Shown here one piece after another: positions 47,619-61,518 of a stretch of DNA of 64,000 nucleotides. This DNA comes from Methanoculleus methanifontis (GTDB taxonomy: Archaea; Halobacteriota; Methanomicrobia; Methanomicrobiales; Methanoculleaceae). Positions within the stretch are counted from its first letter, which is position 1. Every line of letters begins with the position of its first letter. A program made the translations under genes and the position numbers. The notes below the pieces were generated by a model. The model ran no database searches. It was not told where the DNA came from and saw nothing but the letters and a program-made list of their open reading frames with translations. Where the stretch lies: the NCBI RefSeq assembly GCF_030464365.1, contig NZ_VCYI01000005.1, positions 62,001 to 126,000 of the forward strand, in the 5' to 3' direction.

Positions 47619-49199
47619 TCACCTGACCTTTCCAAACTCCGTGCTCACATCTGCCGCCGACTGGTATGTCCGGTCGGAGAAGCTCTCGATCGCCGTGATC
47701 ACGTCCAGGGGAGCGTCGTTCTTCCGGGCCTGGGCGACGATCTCCTGTTTACCTGCCGGGTAATCCATACCCTTGAGGTAGAACTGCAGGTCGGCGGCGG
47801 AGAGATGGGTACGGGGTGGTACCGTCCTCCGGGCCGCGGGTGCCTCCTCGACAGGGGTTTCAGGTCGAACCACCTCCTCTCTCCGGACCTCCTCTGCACT
47901 GATCTCGGGCTCCGGCCGCGTCTCCATCCCGACCGGCTGTTCCCCGCGGACCTCCCTCCCGAACTCCGTGCTCACGTCGGCGGCCGACTGGTATGTCCGG
48001 TCGGAGAAGCCCTCGATCGCTGCAATCACATCCTGCGGGGCATTGTTCTTCCGGGCCTGAGCGGCGACCTCCTGCCTCCCTGCCGGGTAGTCCATGCCCT
48101 TGAGGTAGACCTGCAGATCGGCTGCAGAGAGATGGGTGCGGGGCGGTACCGTCCTCCGTGCTGCGGGTGCCTCCTCGCGGATCTCCTCCACAGTAGTCTC
48201 GCGGACCTCCCTTGCAGGCACCTCGATCCCGGTCGGCTGCCGGGTGCGGGCCTCGCTGCCAAACTCTTCACGCACGTCGGCGGGCGACCGGTACGCCCGG
48301 TCGTTGAAGTTCTCAAGTACCGAGACCACACCCTGCGGCGCGTCGCTCTGCCGGGCCCGGGTTATGAGATCCTGTTTGCTCGCCGGGTAGTTCATGCCCG
48401 CCAGATAGGTCTGCAGGCCGGCGGCCGAGAGACGCCCGGCGGAAGGCCCCGGGGTCATCAGTGACCGTTCGGGTCCCGTTGCCGGCCGAGCCTCCATCGT
48501 GGCTGCCGGTTCTCTCCGGACCTCCTCGACGACGGTCTCACGGGGTGGCGTCTCGACTATCCGTTCCCTCCTGACCTCCCTGACGCCGGCCCCCGAGGGC
48601 GGCGGGCCCTCCGTCATCACCGGCCGTTCCTCGACACGCTGCGTTGCCGGTTGACCTCCCCATCCGGCTGCGACCGTCTGGACGGGCGGCGGCGTCGGAA
48701 CGATCCGCTCTCCGCCAGAGGGCGTAGTCTCCGGCGGTGCCGCAGTCTCTGCCGCCCGGGACGGCGGCACCTCCCTCTCTGTTACCGGGACCGGGGGTGC
48801 CGCTGCCGTTGCCGCAGCCGCACGTGCCGGGGGCGGTGTCCGAACCAGATTCCAGTTCGCCTCGTTCGGCATCCTGTCCCGGGAGAACCCCGGAGAGCTA
48901 TCCAGTGTCCGCTTGTCCGCGTCCACGATAGCGCTCCTTTCACCGGGGCGGGTCTGAACCGCCTCCCAGGGGATGGCGAAATGCTTCTCGCCGAACCCGA
49001 GAATCCCACCGTAAGAGAGCACGGCGTACGCGATGCAGCCGCTGTCGCGGTCTATCGCGACATCACTGATATCACCGAGGTTTTCTCCTTCTGTGTTTCG
49101 CACCTTGATGTCGCGGATGTCGTACGCACGCATCAGGTTCACCGTCTCCTCCCGCCGCGGCCTGGTCTCCAGTACCGATCCCGTCTGTTGTTCAGCCAT
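47619..49199 (-). CDS. PRC-barrel protein with three DUF2795-like repeats
   Basis: A 526-residue paralog of the neighbouring protein. It has an N-terminal PRC barrel (RDIKVRNTEGENLGDISDVA, GFGEKHFAIPWEAV) and a low-complexity linker of about 160 residues with many EVRRE-type motifs. Three C-terminal repeats follow; the last two are nearly identical (THLSAADLQxYLKGMDYPAG, SDRTYQSAADVSTEFG). GGAGGGAG upstream decides ATG 49199. The 202-nt gap to the next paralog contains a TTAAATAG-type promoter element, so the two may be separate units. Confidence 0.82.
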   Translation of the reverse strand: MAEQQTGSVLETRPRREETVNLMRAYDIRDIKVRNTEGENLGDISDVAIDRDSGCIAYAVLSYGGILGFGEKHFAIPWEAVQTRPGERSAIVDADKRTLDSSPGFSRDRMPNEANWNLVRTPPPARAAAATAAAPPVPVTEREVPPSRAAETAAPPETTPSGGERIVPTPPPVQTVAAGWGGQPATQRVEERPVMTEGPPPSGAGVREVRRERIVETPPRETVVEEVRREPAATMEARPATGPERSLMTPGPSAGRLSAAGLQTYLAGMNYPASKQDLITRARQSDAPQGVVSVLENFNDRAYRSPADVREEFGSEARTRQPTGIEVPAREVRETTVEEIREEAPAARRTVPPRTHLSAADLQVYLKGMDYPAGRQEVAAQARKNNAPQDVIAAIEGFSDRTYQSAADVSTEFGREVRGEQPVGMETRPEPEISAEEVRREEVVRPETPVEEAPAARRTVPPRTHLSAADLQFYLKGMDYPAGKQEIVAQARKNDAPLDVITAIESFSDRTYQSAADVSTEFGKVR

Positions 49200-49345
49200 C
49201 GTATCTCCCTCCAACTATTCTCGAAGGGGTATCCCTTCAAGGCGGGGGAGTAGAGGATCGAGGATACTTAAGGGTTTCCGGCTCAGAGAGATCGAGCTGT
49301 TTCAGCCAGGAGAAGGAAGAATGGGGGCGGATGCCAGCCCAAACC

Positions 49346-50653
49346 TTACGGCCGGGCGTAACGGAGGATGAGCTCGGTCGCCGCCCTGATATCCTGCCCC
49401 TGCTTCCTTGCCTCGGCGAGGTAGGTGTTGTAGACCTCGTCGGTCACGAGCCGCAGCTGCGGGCGGAAGAGGTCGGCGTGCATCATCAGGTCAAAGCACC
49501 GCGCTTCGCTCTCGGTGAGACCGAGCGCCCGGTACTCCCCGGTGTGCGGTAAGAATGCCGGGTTTTTGTCACGGGGCGTCCTGACCACGAGGTCGGCGAG
49601 CGGTGTCGCCGGGATAGGCTCGGCGCTGCTCACGAAGACGTCGTCGAGGGAGAGCGCAGCGATGAGATCCTTCGTCGCCTCGTAGTCCCGCTCCGTCTCC
49701 CCGGGGTAGCCGACGATGAAACTCCCCGCAACCCGGAGGCCATGCTCCCGGCACCGCTCCACCGCCTCCTTGACCTGCCGGACGGTCGCGCCCTTGCCCA
49801 TCAGCCTGAGCACCCGCTCGCTCCCCGACTCGATCCCGAAGAAGACCCACCCGATGGTGTACTGCCGGACGGCGTCCAGGATCTCGTCGGTGATGCAGTC
49901 GACGCGGATGTCCGGGGAGGAGACGTTCTTTTGTCCCATCACCTCCGCCATCGAACGAAGGAGGGCGATGAAAGCTTCCGGGTTCATCTCCCCGCCGGTG
50001 GAGCCGTAGAGCGATCCCGTCCCCCCGGAGACCGAGAGCCTTGTCGCTCCGTGCGCCGCAAAGGCCTTCACCTCCTCGATGATGCTTCCGAGCGGGCGGC
50101 TCCGGACCGCCCTCCCGAAGAACCGGGGGACCTGGCAGAAGGTGCACCCCCCGATGCACCCCCGATGGGTCTCGATGTAGGCGCTCGCTCCCCTGACGCT
50201 CTGGCTCCCGATGTCGTCCGGGATCAGGGGGAGCGGACGATCCATCGACGCCGGTGGAGCGGGCGGCGTCACGACCGGCCGGTCGGCGTCGAGGAACGCG
50301 ATCCCCAAAAGATCGGGCGACACCCCTTCTTCGACGAGCCGCACCACCGTCTCCTCACCCTCGCCGACGACCACCGCGTCGGGGGCGAGCTCCCCGAGCA
50401 CCATCTCCGGAGCGGCCGAGACCGGCCCCCCGATGTAAACCTTACCCCCCTGCTCGCGGTGAGTCCGGACCAGGTCCCGGATCGCGGGGTCGAGGAGGTG
50501 CTGGGTCGAGAAGAGGCTCATCAGCAGGACCGAGTCGGCCGGCACGGCGGGCGTCCGGGTGAGGGTTACCCTGTGTCCTGCGTCGCGGAGGACACCGCCG
50601 ATCAGCATGGCGCCGTAGGTGTAGATGCCGGGGGAGAGGATCGTGATCTCCAT
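49346..50653 (-). CDS. B12-binding-type radical SAM protein
   Basis: A 435-residue protein with an N-terminal cobalamin-binding-like Rossmann domain (about 1-125: ILSPGIYTYGAMLIGGVLRDAGH, GGKVYIGGPVSAAPE, AVVVGEGEETV). A radical SAM domain follows with cluster motif CIGGCTFC (about residues 166-173), plus FFGIESGSERVLRLMGKG and FIVGYPGETERDY. It resembles the MJ0865-type family of methanogen B12/radical SAM proteins. The reaction is unknown, possibly methylation at an unreactive carbon. The corrinoid operon in this window shows the cofactor is made. Confidence 0.88.
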   Translation of the reverse strand: MEITILSPGIYTYGAMLIGGVLRDAGHRVTLTRTPAVPADSVLLMSLFSTQHLLDPAIRDLVRTHREQGGKVYIGGPVSAAPEMVLGELAPDAVVVGEGEETVVRLVEEGVSPDLLGIAFLDADRPVVTPPAPPASMDRPLPLIPDDIGSQSVRGASAYIETHRGCIGGCTFCQVPRFFGRAVRSRPLGSIIEEVKAFAAHGATRLSVSGGTGSLYGSTGGEMNPEAFIALLRSMAEVMGQKNVSSPDIRVDCITDEILDAVRQYTIGWVFFGIESGSERVLRLMGKGATVRQVKEAVERCREHGLRVAGSFIVGYPGETERDYEATKDLIAALSLDDVFVSSAEPIPATPLADLVVRTPRDKNPAFLPHTGEYRALGLTESEARCFDLMMHADLFRPQLRLVTDEVYNTYLAEARKQGQDIRAATELILRYARP

Positions 50654-51443: not shown

Positions 51444-52520
51444 CTACGCTGGAACCCCTTCCCCGACCCGGCGGGCGTAGGCCGTTACCGCCCACCCGAG
51501 GAGCGCCGTTACGCCCGCGACCAGAAGAAGGATCAGCCAGTGGACGGGACCGGCGGTGTCCACCGCGAGCCTGACCATGAGGTTCAAGGGGTTGTAGGGG
51601 ACGGCCATGACGAGGAGGAAGACCACGACGAGCGCGGTCGAGAAGATGAACTGGGCGCTCGTCCGTTCGCGGTAGTGGAGCGCCACGAGAGCTCCGAGCA
51701 GGATGAGGAAGAGCCCGCCCGCCGAGGCGTGGAGGAGGATCGCGGCGGCGTTATCGACCGCGATGCCGTTGAACCCGAGGAGGAGGAGCCAGGCTCCGGC
51801 CTGAACCGGGACCAGAACCTCGCAGGCGGCAACCTTCCCCCAGACCATCTCCGCGAACGTGACCGGCGTCGACATGAGCGTCTCGAGCGTCTGGCGCTGG
51901 TATTCTTCGGTGATGAGGTCGATGATCAGGGCGGCCGAGACGATCGCCGGGAGAAGGACGAGCAGCGGAATGAGGAGGCCGTAGACGAACTCGAAGAAGT
52001 TCTCGCCGCCGCCGGACTCGGGGAAGTTCAGCGAGACCGGGAAGGCGGTCATCCGGTCGGCCCGGACCTCCCGCAGTTCCTTCTCGTAGCCCTGGAGCAC
52101 CTCTTTTACCTTGACGTTGATGACGCTCGACTGCAGGTCGTTCTGGATGAGATAGAGCGTGACCATGACCGGCCCCTCGGCGTCGGGCGGGGTGTCCGGG
52201 ACGTAAACCACCGCCGAGACCGCTCGTTCGCGGAGCGCCGCAAGCGCCTGGCTGAGATCCATCCGGTGGAGGATGAGGTCGTCTCTCTTCTCGAACTCGT
52301 CGATGAGCGGTGAGTCCGCCCCTGCGTAGCCGACGCCGTAGGTGACCGTCGAGTAGCCCTCGATCGCCTCCGGGTCGTACATGGCGGTGAGCCCCACCAT
52401 CAGAAACGACGAGAACATCGCGATGAAGACCTGCAGGAGGATCGCAAAGACGATCGTCTTCTCCGACGAGAGACCCAGGAGTTCTTTCTTCGCGATAAGG
52501 CCGATGTTTCGTCTTTTCAC
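51444..52520 (-). CDS. ABC-2 type transporter permease
   Basis: A 358-residue ABC-2 exporter permease (NatB/YhaP-like). One helix near the N-terminus (IVFAILLQVFIAMFSSFLMVG) is followed by an extracytoplasmic domain (about 50-180), then five or so helices, with EEYQRQTLETLMSTPVTFAEMVWGK as the coupling loop. Start GTG 52520 overlaps the stop of the upstream permease-PrsW gene (GTGA), so the two are translationally coupled. The matching ATPase is divergent at 54403. Confidence 0.87.
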   Translation of the reverse strand: MKRRNIGLIAKKELLGLSSEKTIVFAILLQVFIAMFSSFLMVGLTAMYDPEAIEGYSTVTYGVGYAGADSPLIDEFEKRDDLILHRMDLSQALAALRERAVSAVVYVPDTPPDAEGPVMVTLYLIQNDLQSSVINVKVKEVLQGYEKELREVRADRMTAFPVSLNFPESGGGENFFEFVYGLLIPLLVLLPAIVSAALIIDLITEEYQRQTLETLMSTPVTFAEMVWGKVAACEVLVPVQAGAWLLLLGFNGIAVDNAAAILLHASAGGLFLILLGALVALHYRERTSAQFIFSTALVVVFLLVMAVPYNPLNLMVRLAVDTAGPVHWLILLLVAGVTALLGWAVTAYARRVGEGVPA

Positions 52521-54322
52521 AGGAGCGCCCCCATCAGGAAGTAGAGGTTGTAGAGACTGTGCACCATGCACGCCGCGATGAGCCCCGGCCCGTAACCCTG
52601 CCGCCCCCAGAGCAGGAGGAAACCGCCGGTGACGAGCACTCCCGCGATGTGGAGGAGGAGCGGCATCCAGAGCACCTGGAGGGAGAGGAAGAGGACGCTC
52701 CCGAAGATCGACTCGGTGATCTGGGCGAGCGTGGCGAAGAGGAGGAGTTTTTCACCGGCCAGGAACCCGAACCCGATCGCGACCGCCCCGAGGAGCAGGT
52801 TCTTCGGCGTCAGGAACCCGGGCCGCTCCCGTGCCACCGCGTAAAGCCCGATCGACTTCGCGAACTCCTCGATGAACGCCGCGGAGACGGTCAGGAGAAC
52901 GAGAGAGAGCGGCATCGGGATGTTGAAGAAGAGGACAAGCGTCAGCATCTGGGCCATGAAGACGAACGGTATCGTGAAACCGGCGATCAGGAAGAGCGAG
53001 AGGTGCGGGTGGTCGCGACTTATCCCGCCCGAGACGAAGTCCGCGAGCCTCGATGCAAGCGGCTTCTGCGAGAAGAGGCGTTCCTCGCGGAAATTCGCGA
53101 TGCCGACGTAGAAGAGGATGATGCTCGTTGCAAAGAAGAGCACGGTCGAGTAGACATACTCCATGGCGGTGAACCCGTCACCCTGGATATCGAGGACGAC
53201 CAGGGTGAGGGGCGAGATGATGCTGATGACGTGGGTGTTCGCAAAGACCGTCGGGAAGAAGAGGTACGACGTGGCGAGGGTCGAGAAGAAGATCGAGACG
53301 AACGAGAGTTCCTTGAAACTCCGGGAGGCCATCCCGATGATCAGGGCGTTTGCGAGGAAAAAGAGGATGACCGGGAGGAGCGGGAGGAGGATTGTCATCG
53401 GCGCTCCGGCAAAGAGGGTGATCGCGACGGCGATGAGGAGCATGATCGTGAAGTAGGGGAGCGCTTTGCCGACGACGATCGCGGCCGGCCGGACGGGAGT
53501 GGAGAGGAGGGCTTCCCCGGCCCTTCCCACCCGCTCGTTCATCACGCTCATCATGAAGAACTGCGAGGTGAAGTAGAGCGGGAAGATGAAGACGAATACC
53601 AGGATGATTGCATCGAAAGGAAGCGGTGGAGAGAGCTCCGAGGGCGTCCTGAACTGCTCCATGGCGGAATCGCCCGAGATGACGCCGGTGTAGCGCTCGA
53701 TGGGGTGTCCGCTCCCCGTGTCGGCGAGGTGCTCCCGAAGGACGTCCTCGGAGATGGGCATTGCCGACGCCGGCGGTGTCACCGTTTCGACCGGGCCGGG
53801 GGGAGCAGGAGGTCTTCCGGTATCCGCCGGGGCACCGACCTGCTGCCCGCTCTGGGTCGCCAGGAAGTCGATCTCACTCTTTACGTATTGCAGGTCTATC
53901 CAGAGCGGGTAGGCGGCGAAGAGGTCGGGTTCTCCTGCGGCCACGTAGGAGACGTAGCCATCGTAGTCACGTTCGAGCGTTTTTAGCGCCGCTCGCCCTT
54001 TGTCCGTATCGGCGGCATAGACCTCGCCGTTCAGGACGACGACGTCGTACGCGAACCGGTTCTCCCAGAGGGCCGCCCCATTGTCGAGGTAGGGAGTAAA
54101 ACGGCTGTCGGGAGCGACGATCCTGGCGATCTCGGGGTCGTCGATGCCGATGCGGTACATGCCGTCCTGCATATGGACGCCGCTCTGGGCGGCAAACGCT
54201 GTTACCAACATCAGGAGGACGAGAAGCCCCGCCGCGAGCGGGAGGACGCTTCTCCCCATCGTGGTCATCGACCGGTTCATCTCCCAGGCGGCGATCGTCC
54301 GAATGGAGGAGGCAAGACTCAT
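52517..54322 (-). CDS. ABC-2 permease fused to a PrsW-like intramembrane protease domain
   Basis: A 601-residue membrane protein. Residues 1-410 form an ABC-2 permease: helix at 27-46, external domain with a proline-rich loop, five later helices and the coupling loop GRAGEALLSTPVRPAAIVVGK. Residues about 440-601 form a second membrane domain with PrsW motifs: EEFAK (485-489, ExxxK form EExxK), FLAGE (520-524) and HSLYN (588-592). PrsW enzymes cut membrane-bound anti-sigma factors in bacteria, but archaea lack those targets. It pairs with a second permease (51444) and a divergent ATPase (54403), so the protease may process the exported peptide or an immunity/sensor protein. Confidence 0.85.
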   Translation of the reverse strand: MSLASSIRTIAAWEMNRSMTTMGRSVLPLAAGLLVLLMLVTAFAAQSGVHMQDGMYRIGIDDPEIARIVAPDSRFTPYLDNGAALWENRFAYDVVVLNGEVYAADTDKGRAALKTLERDYDGYVSYVAAGEPDLFAAYPLWIDLQYVKSEIDFLATQSGQQVGAPADTGRPPAPPGPVETVTPPASAMPISEDVLREHLADTGSGHPIERYTGVISGDSAMEQFRTPSELSPPLPFDAIILVFVFIFPLYFTSQFFMMSVMNERVGRAGEALLSTPVRPAAIVVGKALPYFTIMLLIAVAITLFAGAPMTILLPLLPVILFFLANALIIGMASRSFKELSFVSIFFSTLATSYLFFPTVFANTHVISIISPLTLVVLDIQGDGFTAMEYVYSTVLFFATSIILFYVGIANFREERLFSQKPLASRLADFVSGGISRDHPHLSLFLIAGFTIPFVFMAQMLTLVLFFNIPMPLSLVLLTVSAAFIEEFAKSIGLYAVARERPGFLTPKNLLLGAVAIGFGFLAGEKLLLFATLAQITESIFGSVLFLSLQVLWMPLLLHIAGVLVTGGFLLLWGRQGYGPGLIAACMVHSLYNLYFLMGALL

Positions 54323-54402
54323 AGTAATCCCTGGCGGCGTTAGAGAACCATACTTCTGTGCAGCAACCTATTAGTAGGCATCGGAGACATAAGGGATACC
54401 GG

Positions 54403-55290
54403 ATGATCACGGCCCGCTCTATTATCAAGCATTACGGCGACTTCCCGGCTCTCGACGGCGTCTCTTTCGACCTCGACGATGCACGGATACTTGGGGTTAT
54501 CGGGCATAACGGCGCAGGGAAGACGACGCTCTTGAAGATCATGGCCGGCCTTATCTCGCCGACGGCAGGAAGCCTCGTCATCGACGGGGTTGACGTTGTC
54601 AGAAGGCCGCTCGACCTGAAACAGAACCTGGGGTACCTCCCCGAAGAGTCGCGTCTCTACGAGACGATGACCACGGACGCGTACCTCGCGTTCTTCGGTG
54701 AGATCTACGGTCTAACGAAAGCGGCTATCCGGGACCGGCGTGACGAACTCCTCGATTCGCTCGCGCTCGATGCGGACAACAAGAAGATCGGGGAACTCTC
54801 GAAGGGGATGAAGCGGAAGGTCGCGATCGCGCGGTCGCTGATGCACGATCCGGGGCTGCTCATCTACGACGAGCCCACCTCCGGTCTCGACCCCATGACC
54901 TCGCGGTCGGTGCTCGACTACGTCAAGGATCTCCGCGAACGGGGCAAGACGGTGATCTTCTCCGCCCACAACCTCTTCCAGGTGGAGGAAGCCTGCGACC
55001 ACGTCCTGATCCTGCGCCGGGGGAAGGTGGTGGCGAAAGGCACCATGCCCGAACTCCGGGAGACCTTCGGCTCGCTCACCTACCAGGTCTTCTTCCGGGT
55101 GCCCGATCCGGCGACGTTCGCGACAGCGATCGATTATGCGGCCTCCGACGGCCGGTACCTTGCCGAGGCGCGTTCCGTCGAAGAACTGAACCGGACGACC
55201 GCGGTGCTTGCGGCCGACGGTGCGACGATCGAGCGGATCGAGTCCCATTACCCGACGCTCGAAGAGATGCTCTTGAAGATCGGGCAGTAA
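54403..55290 (+). CDS. ABC-2 type transporter ATPase
   Basis: A 295-residue ATP-binding subunit. Walker A is GHNGAGKTTLLKIM, the signature is ELSKGMKRKVAIARSL (KGM variant usual in NatA-like exporters), Walker B is LLIYDEPTSGLDPMTS, and an H-loop follows in IFSAHNLFQVEEA. A C-terminal extension of about 75 residues is typical of ABC-2 ATPases. ATG 54403 is chosen over the frame start at 54358. It is divergent from the two permease genes and almost certainly powers them. Confidence 0.9.
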   Translation: MITARSIIKHYGDFPALDGVSFDLDDARILGVIGHNGAGKTTLLKIMAGLISPTAGSLVIDGVDVVRRPLDLKQNLGYLPEESRLYETMTTDAYLAFFGEIYGLTKAAIRDRRDELLDSLALDADNKKIGELSKGMKRKVAIARSLMHDPGLLIYDEPTSGLDPMTSRSVLDYVKDLRERGKTVIFSAHNLFQVEEACDHVLILRRGKVVAKGTMPELRETFGSLTYQVFFRVPDPATFATAIDYAASDGRYLAEARSVEELNRTTAVLAADGATIERIESHYPTLEEMLLKIGQ

Positions 55291-55799: not shown

Positions 55800-55833
55800 A
55801 TACGTCTGACCTAACAGTGTTGCATGGGAAAAG

Positions 55834-55841
55834 GTATAAAC
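55834..55841. promoter_or_regulatory. Bidirectional TATA region between tRNA-Lys and the DHH gene
   Basis: GTATAAAC reads as a TATA box for the plus-strand gene starting at 55871. Its complement GTTTATAC is correctly placed about 35 nt upstream of the minus-strand tRNA. It lies downstream of the first in-frame ATG at 55817, so that start is excluded. Confidence 0.5.
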
Positions 55842-55870
55842 TTTATGGAACCTCCCCAAAAATCGCCGAA

Positions 55871-57373
55871 ATGGAATCCCTTAATACCATGAGAAGTTAC
55901 ACCATTGTACGCATGCCTGAGGCGGTCCAGAACGTTTCAAAGGAACGTATCAAATACATCATTCTTGGCTGCGGGAGCACCGGCTATAACGTCGCCGAGG
56001 AGCTCGAGCAGGAGAGCGAAGATCTCATCATCGTCGATAAGAACGAGAAGCGGGTGGAAGACCTTCGCGATCAGAAGTACGAAGCGCTCGTTCGCGACCT
56101 CCTTGACCCGGGTTTCATGGAAGGGCTGCCCGTGCCGGAGGTCGCGTTCATCCTCGCGAACGACCGGGAGGCCAACCTGACCGCGCTCAAAACCGTCAAG
56201 AACCGGTACCCGGCGACATACGTCATCGCACGCGCCACCGACCCGGTCAGCGTCGACCTCCTCCACCAGGAAGGCGCCGATATCGTCCTCTACCCACAGG
56301 AGGTGGTTGCGAGAACCGCCATCCACCACATCAGGAAGCTCCAATCATCGAGGCTCGCCCTGCGGCTCTACGACATGCTCGCCTCCTGGGAGGGGACGCT
56401 CTGCATCGTCACCCACTTGAACCCTGACCCCGACTCGATATCGAGCGCCATGGCGCTCTCGATGATTGCACGGCACGCGAGCCGCAACAAGCTCAACTGC
56501 CGCATCGTCTACGAAGGGGACATCGGGCACCAGGAGAACCGGGCGTTCATCAATCTCCTCGATATCAAGCTGGAGCGGCTCACCCCCCAGATCCTCGAGG
56601 AGTGCGACTACATCGCCCTGGTCGACTCGTCCGGGCCCGGCGTGAACAACGAGCTCCCCAGGTCGACCCGGGTCAACATCATCGTCGACCACCACAAGAA
56701 CGGCGAGCACCCGTCCACGGTCGCTGACTTCATCGATATCAGGCCGGGGGTCGGCGCCACGGCGAGCATCATGACCCAGTACCTGATGGAACTCGATATC
56801 CCGGTGAACAAATCAGTGGCCACCGCGCTCCTGTATGGTATCCGGGCCGACACCCGCGACTTCAAGCGCAACGTCACCCCCCAGGACCTCAACTACGCGG
56901 CGTTCCTCCTCCCCCTGACCGACTCGGACCTTCTCGATAAGATCACCTCCCCCTCCATGTCGCTTGAGACGGTGGAGATCATCGGGAACGCCATCCGGAA
57001 CCGCCGGCTCAAGAGCGGCTATCTCTTCTCGAACGTCGGCTACATCAGGAACCGCGACGCTCTCCCGCAGGCTGCCGATATGCTGATCCACCTCGAGGGC
57101 GTGAACACGGCGCTGGTCTACGGCATCAGCGACCGGAACATTGTCATCTCGGCGCGGAACAAGGATATCCGGCTCCATCTCGGCAACGTGATGGCCGAGG
57201 CGTTCGGGCCTATCGGTGAGGCCGGCGGGCACGCCACGATGGCGGCGGCCATGATACCGCTCAACTACTTCTCCATGGCGAAGGAGAAGGAAGGCCTGCT
57301 CGAGCTCATCATCGATCCGATCCTGAAGAGGTTCTCGAGCATCGTCGGCCTGGACGACGAGGACGGACAATGA
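55871..57373 (+). CDS. TrkA-N / DHH / DHHA1 three-domain protein
   Basis: A 500-residue protein. A TrkA-N Rossmann domain (about 28-150: YIILGCGSTGYNVAEELEQE) is followed by a DHH phosphoesterase domain (HLNPDPDSISSAMALS, ALVDSSGP, IIVDHHKNGEHP) and a C-terminal DHHA1 nucleic-acid- or nucleotide-binding domain ending EAGGHATMAAAMIP (GGH motif). Related DHH-DHHA1 enzymes hydrolyse oligoribonucleotides or cyclic dinucleotides. The fused nucleotide-binding domain suggests control by NAD(H) or a similar ligand. ATG 55871 fits the TATA box. Later ATGs at 55889 and 55913 are possible. Its stop overlaps the mptE start. Confidence 0.87.
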   Translation: MESLNTMRSYTIVRMPEAVQNVSKERIKYIILGCGSTGYNVAEELEQESEDLIIVDKNEKRVEDLRDQKYEALVRDLLDPGFMEGLPVPEVAFILANDREANLTALKTVKNRYPATYVIARATDPVSVDLLHQEGADIVLYPQEVVARTAIHHIRKLQSSRLALRLYDMLASWEGTLCIVTHLNPDPDSISSAMALSMIARHASRNKLNCRIVYEGDIGHQENRAFINLLDIKLERLTPQILEECDYIALVDSSGPGVNNELPRSTRVNIIVDHHKNGEHPSTVADFIDIRPGVGATASIMTQYLMELDIPVNKSVATALLYGIRADTRDFKRNVTPQDLNYAAFLLPLTDSDLLDKITSPSMSLETVEIIGNAIRNRRLKSGYLFSNVGYIRNRDALPQAADMLIHLEGVNTALVYGISDRNIVISARNKDIRLHLGNVMAEAFGPIGEAGGHATMAAAMIPLNYFSMAKEKEGLLELIIDPILKRFSSIVGLDDEDGQ

Positions 57374-60381: not shown

Positions 60382-61518
60382 TCATTCCTTCTCCCGCAGT
60401 TCCATCACCCGCAGAACGTCCGTCCGGGTCACGATCCCGACCAGGTCGCCATCAGCGACCACCGGGATCCTCCCGATGTTCTGGCCGGTTATGATCCGGA
60501 GCGCGTCGATGAGCGACGCCGACGGCGGGAGGGTGGTCGGGTTCCGGGTCATGACGTCGCGCACCTGCATCGCTTCCCGGTCGATCGGCGAGGTCTTGTG
60601 GATGTCGGCGAGGGCGACGATCCCCACAAGCGACCCCCGCTCCATCACGGGAAAACCGAGGTGCTTTGTCTCATACATCATCTCCACCACCCGGGGCAGC
60701 GGCATCGTCGGCTCGACGGTAGTTACAGGACTGCTCATCGCGTCCGCCACCGTGACGTCCTGCAGCAGGATGTTGTAGCGGAGGGAGGTGGCCTCCTGGT
60801 TCGCCCCGATGTAGATGAAGAAGGCGATGAGGATCAGGATCGGGTTCAAGAGCAGGAACCCGACGAGCCCGAAGAGGACGGCAAACCCCTTCCCGACGTC
60901 GGCGGCGATCCGGGTCGCCCGGGAGAGCGGCATCCGGCGGGCGAGCCATGCCCGCAGCACCCGCCCGCCGTCCATCGGAAACGCCGGGAGGAGATTGAAC
61001 CCGAAGAGCAGGACGTTCAGGAGCCCCAGGTAGCCGAAGGTGAAGATCAGGACGCCGGCGACCCCCGGGTCCAGATTGATCGCCGCAACGACGTAGACGA
61101 GGGCGGAGGAGACGATGCCGACCCCAAGGCTCGTCAGCGGCCCCGCGAGCGCCATGGGGAGCTCGATCTTCGGGTCCGGCATCGTCTCCTCCATCTGGGA
61201 GACGCCGCCGAGGATGAGAAGCGTGATGCTGTGGATCTCGATCCCCTTCGCCTTCGCGATGAGCGAGTGGGCCATCTCGTGGATGAAGACGCCGAAGAAG
61301 AGGCCGAGCGCCACGACGGTCCCGAGGATGTAGGGGTTGAACCCCGCCGTGATCAGCGTCATGTCGATCGGAACACCGAAGAGGACCGCGATCAACTCGG
61401 TCGTGAGCACGATCTGGCTCCCGATGATCCAGGCGAAGAGGGGGATCACCAGAAGGAAACTCCAGTGCAGTTTGACCGGTATTCCGGCCAGGTTTCCAAT
61501 CTGTAGCGACGCTTCCAT
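60382..61518 (-). CDS. Site-2 protease with C-terminal CBS pair
   Basis: A 378-residue M50 intramembrane metalloprotease. The zinc motif HEMAH is at residues 80-84, and the third ligand lies in LLPAFPMDGGRVLRAWLARR. A CBS-domain pair follows at about 255-375 (TVADAMSSPVTTVEPTMPLP, VRDVMTRNPTTLPPSASL). CBS pairs sense adenine nucleotides, so cleavage may follow energy state. Many archaea carry this fusion, and the solved Methanocaldococcus S2P is a family relative. ATG 61518 follows a TATA region shared with the divergent PRC-barrel gene. Confidence 0.93.
   Translation of the reverse strand: MEASLQIGNLAGIPVKLHWSFLLVIPLFAWIIGSQIVLTTELIAVLFGVPIDMTLITAGFNPYILGTVVALGLFFGVFIHEMAHSLIAKAKGIEIHSITLLILGGVSQMEETMPDPKIELPMALAGPLTSLGVGIVSSALVYVVAAINLDPGVAGVLIFTFGYLGLLNVLLFGFNLLPAFPMDGGRVLRAWLARRMPLSRATRIAADVGKGFAVLFGLVGFLLLNPILILIAFFIYIGANQEATSLRYNILLQDVTVADAMSSPVTTVEPTMPLPRVVEMMYETKHLGFPVMERGSLVGIVALADIHKTSPIDREAMQVRDVMTRNPTTLPPSASLIDALRIITGQNIGRIPVVADGDLVGIVTRTDVLRVMELREKE

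Follow-up and report, generated by a model that had tools for sequence, protein, structure and literature searches.

A putative PrsW-type intramembrane protease domain fused to an ABC-2 permease in Methanoculleus methanifontis and its archaeal relatives

Streptolysin S is exported by SagGHI, an ATP-binding cassette (ABC) exporter of the ABC-2 type that has two permeases and is linked to a dedicated substrate gene; its CPBP-family protease, SagE, is a separate protein. A bacterial counterpart is NCBIfam family NF041647 (permease subunit/CPBP intramembrane protease), whose single polypeptide combines an ABC permease with a glutamic intramembrane protease. In Firmicutes, the M50 metalloprotease Eep/RseP and the ABC exporter EcsAB/PptAB, encoded by separate genes, work one after the other to produce and secrete short peptides, and Staphylococcus aureus eep and ecsAB mutants both lose secreted linear peptides derived from lipoprotein signal sequences (PMC7157817). 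Here we describe an archaeal fusion encoded in a 64,000-nucleotide stretch of Methanoculleus methanifontis (contig NZ_VCYI01000005.1, positions 62,001 to 126,000; hereafter the window, whose own numbering is used throughout), in which one gene joins an ABC-2 permease to a PrsW-like rather than a CPBP module. Because NF041647 is already in NCBIfam, this kind of fusion is known, and we rate the archaeal PrsW-type protein as a new form of it. The fusion protein has no match to NF041647 at E<=1; the genome's best score, 50.7 bits against a cut-off of 435, belongs to the unfused partner permease, which the N-terminal part of NF041647 resembles (50.6 bits); here the resemblance is to the permease that carries no protease. 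A trace match to SagH scored 19 bits (cut-off 450). A literature search found no paper describing the fusion, in line with an earlier reading of these letters (the original prediction), which knew of no characterised example in methanogens.

Our analysis confirmed the proposed fusion, on stronger evidence than was first given: 52517–54322 encodes a six-helix ABC-2 permease joined to a five-helix PrsW-like domain. The 601-amino-acid reading frame is uninterrupted. Residues 431–601 alone score 24.8–25.1 bits against PF13367 (PrsW-protease; gathering cut-off 23.5, E 1.5e-5), and a whole-genome PrsW search landed independently on the same site at 24.5 bits (neighbours in frame). The match exceeds chance, since 25 of 54 homologous domains hit PrsW with E<=0.01 (the best at 1.6e-9). 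Several relatives score above the PF13367 cut-off, at up to 30 bits. The suggested check against PrsW and CPBP profiles thus came out for PrsW: the domain has no match to CPBP/Rce1 (PF02517), which only one of the 54 homologous domains matches, weakly (E 0.005). A clean assignment from this single protein is harder, as PF13367 is not reported at E<=1 when the full-length fusion is the query, nor is the PrsW equivalog NF033739, against which even the genome's standalone PrsW scores 164 bits (cut-off 225). The permease half of this copy is also weak (ABC-2, 17.8 bits over residues 238–404, under the cut-off), while ABC2_membrane_3 matches 26 of 34 full-length homologues (best 1.2e-14). The domain call therefore rests also on homologues. 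The parts of the locus are as follows:

52517–54322, minus strand: fusion protein, 601 amino acids, with ABC-2 permease (residues 1 to ~410), PrsW-like intramembrane protease (~431–601) and 11 predicted transmembrane helices.
53093–54322, minus strand: ABC-2 permease half, residues 1–410, assigned from the ABC2_membrane_3 matches of its homologues.
53618–54184, minus strand: extracytoplasmic domain, residues 47–235, between transmembrane helices 1 and 2 of the permease half, predicted from the helix and strand pattern of the model and its acidic composition.
52520–53032, minus strand: PrsW-like domain, residues 431–601, assigned from the PF13367 score and the AlphaFold2 model of the domain.
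52856–52870, minus strand: motif 1, EEFAK (485–489; E485, E486, K489), without exception in the 74 phylum-wide and the 80 haloarchaeal homologues.
52748–52765, minus strand: motif 2, FLAGEK (FLAGE at 520–524; F520, E524, K525), with E524 and K525 invariant and F520 in 73/74 (Y in one) and 80/80.
52649–52663, minus strand: motif 3, PLLLH (P554, H558), invariant, aligning with PGH of the standalone PrsW.
52547–52561, minus strand: motif 4, HSLYN (588–592; H588, N592), with H invariant and N in 69/74 and 77/80, otherwise D.
51444–52520, minus strand: second ABC-2 permease (permease 2), 358 amino acids, GTG start, conserved partner of the fusion gene.
54403–55290, plus strand: divergent DrrA/NatA-type ABC ATPase, 295 amino acids, PF00005 at 106 bits, with Walker A GHNGAGKTT, signature LSKGMKRK and DEPTSGLDP.
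54323–54402: 80-bp divergent region, a probable promoter region judging from its conserved length and its conserved CCTATTAGTAGG core.

The PrsW family has been described with four conserved motifs (PMC3482391). Its members (PF13367, MEROPS M82; NF033739) share with the archaeal fusion four helices that bear EExxK, a glutamate motif, a histidine motif and HxxxN, and all four motifs are present in the predicted fusion protein. EEFAK, FLAGE and HSLYN lie exactly where the original prediction placed them; that account took the three for the full set and overlooked PLLLH, whose H558 supplies the histidine motif and completes the four. The family differs from the archaeal domain in having about eight helices, xxxEN and PGH, where the latter has five helices, FxxxEK and PLxxH, and is fused to a transporter. 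A profile alignment with the genome's standalone PrsW, weak overall and weighed below, keeps the four motifs in register (EEFAK/EEYGK, GEK/LEN, the LLLH histidine/PGH, HxxYN/HxxFN).

These residues are strictly conserved. Across 54 phylum-wide sequences nine domain columns are invariant, and all nine are motif residues: E55, E56, K59, E94, K95, P124, H128, H158 and N162, or E485, E486, K489, E524, K525, P554, H558, H588 and N592 in protein numbering. They hold although domain identity falls to 25–38% outside the order. Adding 20 further sequences, the most divergent members included (74 in all), brought only the five N-to-D changes at 592 and the single F520-to-Y change, and three N-to-D changes were the sole motif differences among the 80 haloarchaeal homologues; N or D at this asparagine site is also usual in CPBP proteases. 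We considered whether the protease is degenerate in the most divergent members, whose matches ended at residue 493, and rejected this after the sequences were fetched and the motifs found intact. No orthologue without the protease domain was found among the homologues examined. To judge from these alignments, the invariant residues provide strong evidence, short of proof, of selection for catalysis. The domain might instead serve the transporter structurally and have no catalytic role, given that activity here is only predicted and that the superfamily includes non-catalytic members such as APH-1; with catalytic-type residues fixed against such wide divergence elsewhere in the domain, we consider this most improbable.

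AlphaFold2 gave a middling prediction for the whole protein (pLDDT 73, pTM 0.64), in which the C-terminal domain is among the best parts, and a confident one for the domain alone with 54 sequences (pLDDT 91.9, pTM 0.87). A topology of six plus five transmembrane helices fits the positive-inside rule, with the N-terminus inside, the domain at residues 47–235 outside (acidic, with a mean of 28 D/E versus 16 K/R) and the C-terminus outside. When helix ends are placed manually on the model, four successive helices carry the motif residues, at 0.3–0.76 of their depth; this predicted mid-membrane depth and the profile alignment agree with E485/E486, E524 and H588 sharing a pocket. APH-1, a gamma-secretase component with no ABC partner, is to our knowledge not a protease. 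It is the domain's best neighbour among solved structures: Foldseek placed gamma-secretase APH-1B chains and another APH-1 at ranks 1, 2 and 4 (probability 0.47–0.66, E ~1, TM up to 0.47), values that make the structural support weak and not significant alone. APH-1 is distantly related to PrsW and CPBP (PMC3482391). A sequence search of solved structures returned nothing, and a full-length fold search returned mostly transporters, with ABC transporters among the best and none significant.

The fusion permease does not stand alone. Together, the ATPase, permease 2 and the fusion permease would make up a heteromeric ABC-2 exporter; its ABC-2 permease signature and partner ATPase were found through homologues, permease 2 (62 bits as an ABC-2 permease in a Pfam search) and the ATPase itself. 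The TGA stop of the fusion gene overlaps the GTG start of permease 2 by four bases, GTGA (CTC CTG TGA / GTG AAA), bearing out the proposed translational coupling. The divergent ATPase likewise stands, although the interval originally given (52517–55290) leaves permease 2 outside it and its ATPase start at 54358 is less likely than ATG 54403, most likely the true start. Between the ATPase and fusion genes, the length and CCTATTAGTAGG core of 54323–54402 are strongly conserved within the genus (mostly 65–190 bp across the order), suggesting a promoter region that both genes may share.

On this basis we tentatively propose, as the simplest reading and the likeliest of those considered, though one that falls somewhat short of probable, that exporter and protease form one complex that cuts membrane-embedded peptides and exports the fragments ("cut-and-export"). 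The last five helices of the fusion permease would act as a glutamic-type intramembrane protease (PrsW/CPBP/APH-1 superfamily); it would cut membrane-embedded peptides such as cleaved signal peptides and other transmembrane remnants, and the fragments would enter the translocation path next to it and be exported at the expense of ATP. By analogy, the fused complex would do jointly what the separate Eep and EcsAB/PptAB do in Firmicutes; the nearest chemistry with proof is that of S. aureus, whereas the archaeal exporter has a protease of a different family built in. Its substrates may be many and encoded elsewhere in the genome. The original interpretation is thus supported in part: the fusion, the strictly kept motif residues and the coupling to a second permease and an ATPase bear it out, and the suggested processing of an exported peptide or sensing through proteolysis is putative.

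We surveyed the window's order (Methanomicrobiales) and phylum (Halobacteriota) for the fusion, as had been suggested. Within the order it is present in 113 of 132 good genomes (33 of 38 genera; it appears absent throughout genus g20), within the phylum in 139 of 235, mostly in single copy and largely vertically inherited. The fusion is not restricted to methanogens but occurs also in haloarchaea and other lineages of the phylum. Organisms are named on the strength of a single scan, run with a haloarchaeal query, which returned 249 relatives; the 80 kept include Haloferax, Halorubrum, Natrinema, Haladaptatus and others. Almost all loci read have ATPase, fusion and permease 2 together (the cassette), with other neighbours varying; the ATPase is divergent in the order and several other families, and lies upstream of the fusion on the same strand in most haloarchaea. 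Haloferax mucosum, H. sulfurifontis and H. denitrificans are among the carriers of the cassette. Over 45 loci, the distances of the fusion's two halves, of permease 2 and of the ATPase correlate at 0.90–0.97, as expected for parts inherited together; like the conserved linkage, this counts in favour of cut-and-export. The single-copy, vertical pattern bears on a self-protection role, in which the complex would export membrane-active peptides or toxic compounds and the protease destroy a peptide in the membrane. ABC-2 exporters with DrrA-like ATPases often confer resistance, and drrA is the top NCBIfam match of the ATPase here (232 bits, under the cut-off); CPBP proteins can also serve bacteriocin immunity. 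Intramembrane proteases of the superfamily occur in bacteriocin systems, as with SilX (PMC9298176). Nevertheless, a single-copy, largely vertical gene that is neither accessory nor near biosynthetic genes makes this quite unlikely.

The physical link of protease and exporter could also point, as first proposed, to maturation of one dedicated exported peptide, and a survey for small peptide genes beside the fusion had been suggested. None of at least 40 amino acids is conserved beside the cassette in 50 phylum and 80 haloarchaeal loci, although peptides below 40 amino acids or encoded elsewhere may exist. A neighbouring gene as substrate was rejected accordingly; a dedicated neighbouring substrate is unlikely, and we regard this explanation as very improbable. 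Occurrence across the phylum, mostly as a single copy, and the absence of any substrate gene alongside favour many substrates encoded elsewhere, as cut-and-export proposes.

Within the order, a block of DHH/TrkA, MptE-like, radical-SAM and M50-CBS protease genes is syntenic with the cassette; elsewhere its neighbours are RDD, PEGA or DUF11 proteins. The last gene of the block raises the prospect of regulated proteolysis, with the exporter or its extracytoplasmic domain sensing envelope state and the protease making the first cut in a membrane-tethered regulator, ahead of a site-2 protease. The M50 enzyme, of site-2 type and with two CBS domains (60382–61518, minus strand), lies four genes from the cassette and is syntenic with it in ~20 loci of the order, and Bacillus subtilis PrsW is a site-1 protease. 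According to PMC2996298, intramembrane proteolysis in B. subtilis is influenced by the Ecs ABC transporter. The M50 synteny is, however, confined to the order and interrupted by unrelated DHH/TrkA-N, MptE-like and radical-SAM genes, so it may be a relict of gene order, and no conserved membrane-tethered regulator lies beside the cassette. We therefore rejected the M50 protease as a functional partner, and keep regulated proteolysis as a rather unlikely rival.

Other neighbours were noted. A TrkA-N domain fused to a DHH-DHHA1 phosphoesterase (55817–57373, plus strand) lies beside the ATPase across most of the order. A B12-binding radical SAM protein is encoded at 49346–50653 (minus strand), with members of the same cluster downstream of permease 2 in ~10 other loci, and a PRC-barrel protein with three DUF2795 repeats and long Pro/Glu/Arg-rich linkers at 47619–49214 (minus strand). 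Secreted PEGA-domain proteins, possible partners or substrates, lie directly past permease 2 in family f2 of the order (L049:10558-11877, also L035, L040, L043, L048 and L051). A 608-amino-acid secreted DUF11-type protein starts 20 bases after permease 2 (L094:8920-10746), is probably co-transcribed and has relatives in two genera of family f8.

Several points weigh against cut-and-export. Firstly, no EcsB (PF05975) is among the Pfam matches at E<=1, placing the archaeal permeases outside that family, so that the likeness to Eep/EcsAB extends to function alone; secondly, the direction of transport is taken from the ABC-2 family; thirdly, ~40% of the phylum's good genomes have no cassette, which must be dispensable there; fourthly, plain vertical inheritance would produce the correlation of distances as well; and lastly, the profile comparison sets the fused domain only weakly against the genome's standalone PrsW (probability 5%, P 0.0075), although the four motifs fall in register. 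That ordinary standalone PrsW (L001:1438-2142, minus strand; PF13367 140 bits) means that the fused copy is not the genome's only one. A PrsW-family protein, HVO_0408, is also found in Haloferax volcanii (PMC9263693). The earlier remark that archaea lack anti-sigma factors carries little weight, since PrsW-family proteins occur in archaea anyway.

In its broadest form, cut-and-export would be the work of an ancient, phylum-wide machine of a distinct type that clears signal-peptide remnants together with C-terminal sorting tails such as archaeosortase leaves, a candidate role that we consider decidedly doubtful. All 235 good genomes in the phylum encode archaeosortase A (TIGR04125), so every genome with the cassette also has such tails, and co-occurrence was rejected as a link because it has no discriminating power.

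One deposited haloarchaeal orthologue, WP_227356692.1, is annotated only as "ABC transporter permease subunit", and the archaeal fusion has no NCBIfam model that names it; with its protease half unrecognised in that annotation, it is easily missed in surveys of archaeal proteases. Mutual dependence of intramembrane proteases and ABC exporters is already known from Eep/EcsAB and Ecs/RasP; the archaeal fusion, kept across a phylum with invariant motif residues, suggests that both acts may be one reaction, and offers a single protein in which to test this. We know of no pathway for signal-peptide disposal in these archaea, and the fusion would be a concrete candidate for one.

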